Under the pieces are notes generated by a model that had not been told where the DNA came from, ran no database searches, and worked only from the letters and a program-made list of their open reading frames with translations. Positions 53,691-56,409 of a stretch of DNA of 64,000 nucleotides are shown here, piece after piece; position 1 is the stretch's first letter; every line of letters begins with the position of its first letter. The stretch spans positions 1,364,001 to 1,428,000 of the forward strand of contig CP087563.1 in assembly GCA_020974905.1 (NCBI GenBank), written 5' to 3'. This DNA comes from Planctomycetes bacterium syqfu (GTDB taxonomy: Bacteria > Planctomycetota > Phycisphaerae > Phycisphaerales > Phycisphaeraceae). A program made the position numbers and the translations under genes.

Positions 53691-54137
53691 TTACATGCCG
53701 ACTTCTTCGAGACCTTCGACGACGATGCCCATGGAACGGGCGGTGCCTGCGAGGGTACGAACCATGGCATCTTCAGAAAGACCGGTCAGTTCCTTGCCCT
53801 TTTCTTCGACGATCTTGCGGAGATCTTCGACTTTGAGGGTGCCGACCTTGTCCTTGTTGGGAACGCCTGAGCCCTTTTCGACACCAGCAGCATCTTTGAG
53901 AAGCACGGCGGCCGGCGGGGCTTTGATTTCAAATTCAAAGCTGCGGTCTTTGAAGACGGTGATCACACAGCCAACGACTTTACCGTTGAGTTCACGGGTC
54001 CGTTCGTTGAACTGGGTGACGAACTGGCCGGGGTTGACGCCGTGGGCACCGAGAGCCGGACCAATTGGCGGGGCCGGGGTTGCCTGGCCACCTTTTGCCT
54101 GGATTTTGAACTGTGAGCTGATTTCTTTCTTGGCCAT
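53691..54137 (-). CDS. rplK: 50S ribosomal protein L11
   Basis: 148 residues. FKIQAKGGQATPAPPIGPAL then GAHGVNPGQFVTQFN is diagnostic, with the C-terminal rRNA-binding domain to SMGIVVEGLEEVGM. AAGGAG lies seven bases before the ATG. L11 binds the GTPase centre of 23S rRNA. In most bacteria nusG precedes it; here upstream is a 1.6-kb region without protein genes. Confidence 0.97.
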   Translation of the reverse strand: MAKKEISSQFKIQAKGGQATPAPPIGPALGAHGVNPGQFVTQFNERTRELNGKVVGCVITVFKDRSFEFEIKAPPAAVLLKDAAGVEKGSGVPNKDKVGTLKVEDLRKIVEEKGKELTGLSEDAMVRTLAGTARSMGIVVEGLEEVGM

Positions 54138-54356: not shown

Positions 54357-54476
54357 CGGATTTCGGATTTCGGATTTCGTTCGAATGGTAGACCGCTTGC
54401 GGTTTAGCGCGTTCTGCGAGATTCAAAAAATGTTGACGTTCATTTGATTCATGCAGCACTAAACCGCAAGCGGTTG
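54357..54476 (+). repeat. Composite repeat F3 copy: CGGATTT units plus inverted CCGCTTGCGG arms
   Basis: Three CGGATTT units are followed by CCGCTTGCGGTTTAGCGCG (54393-54411) and, after about 47 bases, by the inverse arm CTAAACCGCAAGCGGT (54459-54474). The arms are perfect complements over 16 bases. The joint and the sequence between the arms resemble those at 46647-46745. Confidence 0.75.
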
Positions 54477-54512: not shown

Positions 54513-54609
54513 TCGCCCCCCTTCGCGTGTTGCCATCAAGCAACATCCGACACAACCCACATGACCCACACGGTTGGTTACCGGTCGGTGACGGCAAAGA
54601 TTTTTTGCT

Positions 54610-55019
54610 CACTTTGTTTGCATCCGGCTAAGACGGGGGTACATCTAACGTGTTGCCGAAAGGTAACGCAACCAGAGACTGACAGGGAACTTGAGACACT
54701 CCCTGGCAAGACATGGAACGTCGCCCGGGCCTACGTGTATAGGGAAAAGAGACCTTAGCGACCAAGAGGAAAAGAGTCACTGACAACCCAGGCTCAAATA
54801 CGCAATGAGCCAACAGACAAGTAAAGGAAACCGGTCAATAACGGCTCGGCATGATCAAAAAACAGGAAAGTGAGACGTCCTGATCACCCGAGCCCCAACA
54901 AGCTCCCAAACAGAGATGACGCTAAATCGAGAAACATGTGGTCTACCATCGCAAGCAGTCCGTTTCTCAAAAATTCTCCCAAACAGCCCGACTTCGCAGG
55001 TCGGGCTGTTTTTTGTTTT
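54610..55019 (+). ncRNA. Candidate large structured RNA with intrinsic terminator
   Basis: No open frame covers this stretch, yet it is rich in nested hairpins: GTTGCC-GAAA-GGTAAC (54653-54666, GNRA loop), CAGGGA/TCCCTG (about 54684/54700), GGCTCA/TGAGCC (54791/54805), and a long stem GGCTCGG...CCGAGCC with inner TGATC...GATCA and CAGGA...TCCTG (54843-54894). GAGAAAC/GTTTCTC (54929-54968) follows. The stretch ends at 54983-55019 in a perfect 9-bp hairpin (ACAGCCCGA/TCGGGCTGT) and TTTTTTGTTTT. The start is uncertain. I checked for the conserved motifs of RNase P, tmRNA, SRP, 6S and common riboswitches and saw none. It is divergent from rplK. Confidence 0.5.
54983..55019 (+). terminator. Strong intrinsic terminator
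   Basis: ACAGCCCGA (54983-54991) pairs exactly with TCGGGCTGT (55001-55009) around CTTCGCAGG, followed by TTTTTTGTTTT. No protein gene lies upstream on this strand for several kilobases, which supports an RNA gene. Confidence 0.9.
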
Positions 55020-55107
55020 ACATCTCCAAATAAAAAACACTACGACACGGTCTGATATGTCACAGTGTTTGATGTGTTATGAATTTCACTGAGTAAGTCC
55101 GACGGCT

Positions 55108-55313
55108 CTCGTCACTCCCGCGCAGGCGGGAGTCCAGTGAAAATTGGTTATTTACTGCCTGTCCGAATCTTGCTCGTCACTCCCGCGCAGGCGGGAGTCC
55201 AGTGGCTGATGGATGGCAGTCTGCTGATCGTGTCAAACTCGTCACTCCCGCGCAGGCGGGAGTCCAGTGGGGTGTGCAAGCGTCTACAGAATGCAACTGG
55301 ATTCCCGCCTGCG
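55108..55313 (+). repeat. Three direct F1 arms at exact 65-base spacing
   Basis: The 32-base unit CTCGTCACTCCCGCGCAGGC then GGGAGTCCAGTG occurs at 55108-55139, 55173-55204 and 55238-55269, separated by two unrelated 33-base spacers. The third unit continues into a full F1 element that is cut at 55313 by the inserted element next to it. The geometry mimics a short CRISPR array, but the unit is the genome's dispersed F1 arm and no cas gene is present. Confidence 0.85.
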
Positions 55314-55509
55314 GACATTATGCACGTGGCCTTCTGACGTAGGGTGGGTAGAGCGTAGCGAAACCCACCATCGGTGCTTGCAATGGCGTTGAATTGGTGG
55401 GTTTCGCTTTGCTCTACCCACCCTACGAATCATGTCGAGTAAGTCCGACCCCTAAAACATCACTAATCACAGTTCATATAAACACTTGTGAAATGAAGTG
55501 CATAATGTC
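55314..55509. mobile_element. MITE-like 196-bp insertion inside element F1
   Basis: GACATTATGCAC (55314-55325) and GTGCATAATGTC (55498-55509) are exact terminal inverted repeats. CCTGCG occurs on both sides (55308-55313, 55510-55515), and joining the flanks restores the expected F1 sequence (CCCGCCTGCG|CGGGAATGACGG), so CCTGCG is the target duplication. Inside lies a second palindrome, CGTAGGGTGGGTAGAGCG...CACCCTACG (55338-55370 / 55395-55427). No transposase is encoded. The rest of the gap to 55743 shows nothing else. Confidence 0.75.
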
Positions 55510-55743: not shown

Positions 55744-56409
55744 TCAAACCATCCCGCCAGCCGGCTCTTCCCATGACTGCACTTCGTTTTTGACCTTCTC
55801 ACGCGAGAACCAGATCAGGATGAACACGGGATACGCACAGGCAAAGGCAATGCCCATGATAATCCCCACCACCATGGCAACCATCATGGCGGTCTCGACG
55901 AATTGAGCACCGCCCCCGCCCATCGACTGACTCTGCTGTTCCATCGCCACTTTCATCTGAGCCATCTGTGCCAACGTGTTGATCGTCACGGCAACCAGTG
56001 AGAAAAGAATTTTGCTGATCGCCCATTTTTTATGAAGTCCACTGGCCGATTCCTTTCGCCCCACCAATTGGGCGCCGCAGACAATGAGCATCACCGAGAG
56101 AATCAAACTCCCAATGCCAACCACCATCAACGGAAAACGCCAGGCGGCCATGCTCTCGAAAACGACCTTGGCCTGATCATCACTCTCGGGTACAAATCCG
56201 CCGATCATACCCATCAAAAACGGGGCGACCGCCTGGTAAGCGCCGCCCAACGCGCCCAGCGATCCAAAGATAATGCTGATGATCCCAATGACCGTCGGCC
56301 AACTGCTCTGAGCGTCAGGCTGCGGGACGAACTCCTGATGGTAGGACGGTGGCACTTGTGCATTGGCAGGTGCTGGCTGATCACCGAGTGGTGGGACATT
56401 GTTTTCCAT
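55744..56409 (-). CDS. Membrane protein, about four helices, unknown
   Basis: 221 residues. A Pro/Gln-rich N-terminus (about 1-35) precedes hydrophobic segments near 38-60 (TVIGIISIIFGSLGALGGAY), 92-115 (FPLMVVGIGSLILSVMLIVC), 130-150 and 172-200 (TAMMVAMVVGIIMGIAFACA). No enzyme motif is visible. A Gly/Gln/Met loop precedes the last helix. It lies 109 bases downstream of the zinc-ribbon membrane gene at 56519 on the same strand; both, with the gene at 57800, look like one cluster of membrane proteins. Confidence 0.6.
   Translation of the reverse strand: MENNVPPLGDQPAPANAQVPPSYHQEFVPQPDAQSSWPTVIGIISIIFGSLGALGGAYQAVAPFLMGMIGGFVPESDDQAKVVFESMAAWRFPLMVVGIGSLILSVMLIVCGAQLVGRKESASGLHKKWAISKILFSLVAVTINTLAQMAQMKVAMEQQSQSMGGGGAQFVETAMMVAMVVGIIMGIAFACAYPVFILIWFSREKVKNEVQSWEEPAGGMV

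Follow-up and report, generated by a model that had tools for sequence, protein, structure and literature searches.

In the Firmicutes, RoxS, a small RNA of the RsaE/RoxS type, acts via repeated C-rich regions that pair with G-rich sites in mRNAs, and Hfq is for the most part dispensable in B. subtilis (PMC5419742). Other points of reference are the CsrB/RsmZ-type RNAs, which are sponges for CsrA, and 6S RNA, tmRNA and RNase P RNA, which are stand-alone structured RNAs. Comparative genomics has in addition yielded candidate structured RNAs, orphans defined by their conservation (PMC2864571). Knowledge of small RNAs is thin outside the well-studied phyla: in a survey of 2022 the PVC group as a whole has 8 distinct sRNA families, as against 345 in Proteobacteria (PMC9029176). 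An orphan, conserved, terminator-bounded RNA with defined candidate seeds would offer a concrete test of base-pairing regulation in a lineage with no detected Hfq; should nothing beyond the RNA gene prove real, the gain for annotation is a modest one.

Such an element lies in the window, the whole 64,000-nucleotide stretch that was analysed (G000:C1:1364001-1428000), which comes from a genome of 7.38 Mb in a single contig (G000). It is intergenic, occupies approximately 54637-55014 on the plus strand (about 370 nt, with the 5' end in the range 54637-54650 and the 3' end at 55014) and contains no gene. We compared it across a genus set of four genomes, G000 itself and three others (G001, G002 and G003). 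We regard it as very probably an independently transcribed RNA gene, transcription being deduced from the sequence, and as an orphan of no known family, restricted to one genus, that is probably a regulator of genes. Like the RsaE/RoxS-type RNAs, it is intergenic, ends in an intrinsic terminator and carries repeated C-rich motifs; it differs from them in belonging to another phylum, in showing no sequence or Rfam relationship, and in that its pairing is predicted from complementarity. It is also, presumably, much longer than RoxS. The features of the locus are as follows.

53691-54137, minus strand: rplK (L11), divergent neighbour in all four genus genomes
54541-54566, plus strand: conserved upstream element CAACATCCGACACAACCCACATGACC, a candidate activator site, which aligns in all four genomes
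54600-54649, plus strand: conserved promoter or 5' end region, with TTGCATC and ACG..GGTA..TCTA invariant
54650-54669, plus strand: hairpin 1 with a GNRA tetraloop, GUGUUGCC-GAAA-GGUAACGC (sequence and folding)
54683-54705, plus strand: hairpin 2, CAGGGA..UCCCUG, loop AACUUGAGACA (sequence, folding and alignment)
54720-54762, plus strand: GUCGC..GCGAC element; GTCGCCCGG, which is invariant, lies at the 5' side and GGAAAAGA within the element (alignment)
54768-54775, plus strand: second copy of GGAAAAGA (repeat count against shuffles)
54791-54811, plus strand: GGCUC..GAGCC hairpin, absent from G002 (sequence and folding)
54843-54894, plus strand: two-part stem of 7+6 bp, in the window and G001 only (sequence and folding)
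54903-54913, plus strand: first copy of the C-rich motif, CUCCCAAACAG (repeat search)
54929-54968, plus strand: hairpin 4, GAGAAAC..GUUUCUC, conserved throughout the genus set
54969-54986, plus strand: linker AAAAUUCUCCCAAACAG with the second copy of the C-rich motif, nearly invariant in the genus alignment
54981-55014, plus strand: intrinsic terminator, 14-bp stem and T tract (terminator scan and genus alignment)
55035-55070, minus strand: separate terminator-like site of the convergent membrane-protein gene (sequence scan)
55744-56409, minus strand: gene for a conserved membrane protein, the convergent neighbour throughout the genus set

An earlier note on this DNA had described a candidate large structured RNA of no recognisable family, in a stretch without genes, ending in a strong terminator and divergent from the L11 operon. 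The arrangement is confirmed: rplK reads leftwards and the RNA lies on the plus strand, there is no credible gene within the stretch, and the terminator has a 14-bp stem followed by a T tract (its stem includes the last six bases of the linker at 54969-54986). The L11 operon, which includes rplK, runs leftwards from a conserved promoter, TTGGCA-17-TATACT, a motif also present in G003 and G002. As the convergent membrane-protein gene has a terminator of its own at 55070-55035, the plus-strand terminator does not belong to that gene. In the promoter region at 54600-54649 we looked for a good sigma-70 match and found none. The string at 54541-54566 is kept in all four genomes while the adjoining intergenic DNA is unalignable, and it is possibly an activator site of the RNA gene.

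The flanks of the element contain several repeats. Between rplK and the RNA gene, 54391-54475 holds an inverted repeat, GACCGCTTGCGGTTTAG ... CTAAACCGCAAGCGGTT, which is probably a repeat element. Past the RNA terminator and before the convergent gene, GTCACTCCCGCGCAGGCGGGAGTCCAGTG forms a dispersed palindromic repeat at 55112-55330, with three direct copies and a partial one in inverted orientation, G001 having fewer copies; at 55339-55427 there is a long imperfect inverted repeat, GTAGGGTGGGTAGAGCGTAGCGAAACCCACC ... GGTGGGTTTCGCTTTGCTCTACCCACCCTACG, which is MITE-like.

A DNA search of 61 genomes recovered the element convincingly in all four genus genomes and in no other, with E-values of 1e-198, 4e-24 and 5e-13 in the three genomes other than the source. 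Identity to the window is 94% in G001 over nearly the whole length, 77% in G003 and 73% in G002; the last two figures refer to the 5' domain, and the 3' part is matched in addition, that of the G002 homologue being missed by global alignment and recovered by local alignment. The homologues are syntenic throughout, lying between the divergent rplK and the convergent membrane-protein gene in each genome. In G003 the DNA from the rplK leader to the element and the DNA past the terminator are largely unalignable, and the element itself is kept. Strings kept across the genus are TTGCATC, ACG..GGTA..TCTA, the GNRA loop of hairpin 1, the loop of hairpin 2, and GTCGCCCGG with GGAAAAGA after it; also kept are the terminator, hairpin 4 and the linker, which reads UCUCCCAAACAG (UCACCCAAACAG in G003). 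The hairpin 2 loop AACUUGAGACA is invariant save for a C to U change in G001, the hairpin 1 loop reads GAAA in the window and G001 and GCAA in G003 and G002, so that its second base varies, and the GUCGC..GCGAC element pairs fully in three of the four genomes. Because homologues exist and the hairpins, terminator and unpaired strings are conserved in the genus, the element is more than a chance assembly.

How much of the RNA is structured is a separate matter. The hairpins that had been pointed out, including the GNRA loop and the stem of about 13 paired bases with an inner stem (7+6 bp, 54843-54894), are present, and the minimum-energy fold of the whole RNA omits some of those listed above. 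The window RNA folds at -120.8 kcal/mol compared with -108.3 +/- 6.1 kcal/mol for shuffled sequences (z = -2.04), and 1 of 100 shuffles does as well; z is -0.77 in G003, -1.85 in G002, and -1.70 for the opposite strand of the window element. Fold energy by itself is weak evidence and does not establish a structured RNA. The middle part, about 150 nt, is variable and is missing from G002, whose predicted RNA is some 225 nt long, so the RNA is neither ornate nor constrained along its whole length: the RNA unit proposed in the earlier note is supported, and the word 'large' overstated it.

The extent of structure was overstated as well. Compensatory changes were sought in four sequences, two of which are 94% alike. 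One two-sided compensatory pair is found in hairpin 2 (G-C to A-U in G002) and one in the terminator stem (C-G to U-A across the genus), and two further pairs appear at the terminator loop when structure is predicted freely, giving two to four in total. With fixed structures, paired cells make up 93% and 100%, a share that falls to 30-53% when the strands are slid, but shuffle tests of both structure alignments do not separate the covariation signal from chance. The details of the fold are therefore only modestly supported by the sequences, and it is on synteny, sequence conservation and the terminator that the probable RNA gene rests.

The Rfam check proposed for the element supports its lack of a known family. 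At the gathering threshold, Rfam 15 gives no match in the window, and at a permissive threshold the best reaches 23.9 bits against a family threshold of 55, these being chance matches, mostly to the terminator. Together with conservation in the genus, this supports a non-coding transcript unit without a confident match to a known family. The alternative that it is a very divergent form of a known RNA is not supported: 6S RNA, tmRNA and RNase P RNA are, like the window RNA, stand-alone and structured, and are similar to it in size or smaller, but none matches here, and each is located elsewhere in the genome (at 0.71 Mb, 5.16 Mb and 6.95 Mb, respectively). A second, short tmRNA match above threshold (L037, G000:C1:239520-239604; 59.9 bits, 85 bases) accompanies the full tmRNA (L036) in this genome and is probably a tRNA. 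A cis-acting leader or riboswitch was also rejected, since the downstream gene is convergent and none is co-directional in any of the four genomes. The candidates from comparative genomics (PMC2864571) are like the window RNA in being orphan structured RNAs defined by conservation; the window RNA matches none of the Rfam families derived there and differs in being restricted to a single genus, with few compensatory changes.

We examined this restriction with sequence patterns and a covariance model. The pattern AACTTGAGACA..GTCGCCCGG matched genus members, and the matches include the public Phycisphaerales/Phycisphaeraceae MAGs UBA7800 and NORP295; further matches in Epibacterium and in two viral contigs were rejected as chance. 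A looser pattern applied to 51 family genomes matched genus members only, and upstream of rplK no trace of the element was seen in the 26 family loci inspected outside the genus. The covariance model of the 5' domain (R1) was run on 400 genomes of the order and 397 of the class, in overlapping samples, under stricter filters and with scoring limited to 8 candidates in each genome, settings under which weak matches may escape. It found genus members at 1e-37 or better, other matches being chance-level or unrelated; those at class level (E about 0.02 over 397 genomes) are A-rich and at chance level, and neither the order-wide nor the class-wide sample gave a convincing homologue outside the genus. 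As far as could be searched, the RNA family appears confined to one genus.

The sole covariance match of note outside the genus, in a genome of the same order (G052; 31.9 bits, 6.6e-6), falls in an element of about 390 bp with terminal inverted repeats of about 31 bp and many full or partial copies. We rejected it as a distant homologue: the common string is 17 nt only and is treated as chance, and a DNA search of the genus gave no match to the G052 element. A mobile-element reading of the RNA itself was likewise set aside, with one match per genus genome versus the many copies of the G052 repeat. The G052 element (L069:1250-1660, minus strand; L059, minus strand) has a strong hairpin and no Rfam match, and looks like a non-autonomous mobile element.

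What, then, might a conserved transcript at this position do? It could be a small mRNA for a short peptide, given that each of the four genomes has a frame, of 65-104 codons, that overlaps the 5' domain, and that RELET (REFET in G001) is read in one frame in each. The homologues are, however, separated by single-base and other frame-breaking indels, the encoded proteins are otherwise unalike, and GTCGCCCGG, the best conserved string, falls in different frames in the window, G003 and G002, so we take the element to be non-coding and a peptide-coding role to be very improbable. A CsrB/RsmZ-type sponge for CsrA would fit an intergenic RNA of CsrB-like length and anatomy, with a terminator and some GGA near hairpins, in a genome with three CsrA homologues. 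Nevertheless, unlike CsrB, CsrC and RsmZ, the window RNA has no Rfam match and is not enriched in GGA (6 observed versus 7.7 +/- 1.8 in shuffles; A(N)GGA 7 versus 5.3), and the G002 homologue has two GGA only, both within GGAAAAGA; a sponge of this type is therefore highly unlikely. The CsrA loci (L052, L053 and L054) thus number three in one planctomycete genome, one of them inside a 213-codon open frame.

Binding of some other protein is harder to dismiss. A stand-alone RNA serving as scaffold or decoy, without base-pairing, would use the repeated GGAAAAGA and the GNRA hairpin for protein or tertiary contacts: every homologue has GGAAAAGA, and three (window, G001 and G002) have it in two copies, GGAAAAG occurs twice in the window RNA, a count that a fraction of 0.001 of shuffles reach, and the GNRA loop is kept despite its varying second base. 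CsrA, the one partner tested by GGA count, nonetheless fails, and we consider such a role possible but on balance doubtful. It could also be argued that the RNA is a remnant of some lost gene, the leader that such a gene once had, or a read-through product with no function of its own, which would account for a terminator without a gene, a narrow distribution and a rapidly diverging middle part. Against this, a co-directional gene is absent from all four genomes, and the 5' domain, linker and terminator are kept while the flanks diverge; we judge this explanation unlikely.

The explanation we favour, at about even chances, is a trans-acting, base-pairing regulatory RNA. The invariant strings sit in loops or linkers, which suggests intermolecular contacts. 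The plus strand would be transcribed from the conserved, non-sigma-70-like promoter region near 54600-54649, and the transcript would end at the intrinsic terminator at 54981-55014. Its AACUUGAGACA loop, its C-rich UUCUCCCAAAC linker or both could then pair in trans with G-rich 5' regions of mRNAs. Base-pairing would proceed without Hfq, for which (PF17209) no match was obtained in the 95.8% complete, single-contig genome. The C-rich motif CUCCCAAAC is present twice in the window RNA, as is CUCCCAAACAG, an 11-nt repeat of a length reached by 14 of 500 shuffles. CUCCCAA occurs twice in the window and G001 and once in G003 and G002, with mean unpaired probabilities of 0.36-0.94. In G003 the linker is changed to UUCACCCAAAC (UUCACCC), and UUCUCCCAA is found in the terminator loop instead. 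Visual inspection suggests that the AACUUGAGACA loop could instead pair internally with UUUCUCAA, which lies in the 3' part of the RNA; this pairing shows no two-sided changes and was not retained.

To look for targets, we scanned the four genus genomes for TGTCTCAAGTT, the complement of the hairpin 2 loop. In the source genome it has two sites, one in the RNA gene itself and one upstream of a PEP-CTERM-like gene next to coaD, whose 5' region lies at about genome position 1,006,880 and which codes for an exported protein (the PEP-CTERM match is weak, E 0.042, below cut-off). The same 5' region carries GTTTGGGAGAA, an 11-nt complement of the linker, and within the 864 kb of the genome that were scanned TTTGGGAGAA is confined to this region and to the complement of the RNA gene itself, about 1.6 occurrences being expected from length alone. 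By linker complementarity the gene ranks second among 702 gene starts sampled, a modest result for a match that was noticed post hoc, in a search with four seeds. The loop 2 complement seems to lie upstream of the probable transcription start of the candidate target and may therefore be due to chance. A G003 orthologue was not found in the 1.36 Mb of that genome searched. G000 and G001, two genomes distinct at species level, share the 5' UTR of the gene at 100% identity for about 105 nt, with less conserved surroundings, and the gene may be a target of the RNA, which we regard as a lead, not proof.

Extending base-pairing regulation further, one could propose a multi-seed RNA that, without detectable Hfq, controls mRNAs showing GUUUGGGAGAA in a 5'-UTR hairpin, that of the PEP-CTERM-type exported protein included, and whose duplicated C-rich motif shifts place (linker, middle or terminator loop) between homologues. 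We offer this as a speculative and rather unlikely extension. The 5' UTR of the candidate target (L119:1555-1660) itself contains a hairpin showing GUUUGGGAGAA and is possibly a regulatory leader in its own right.
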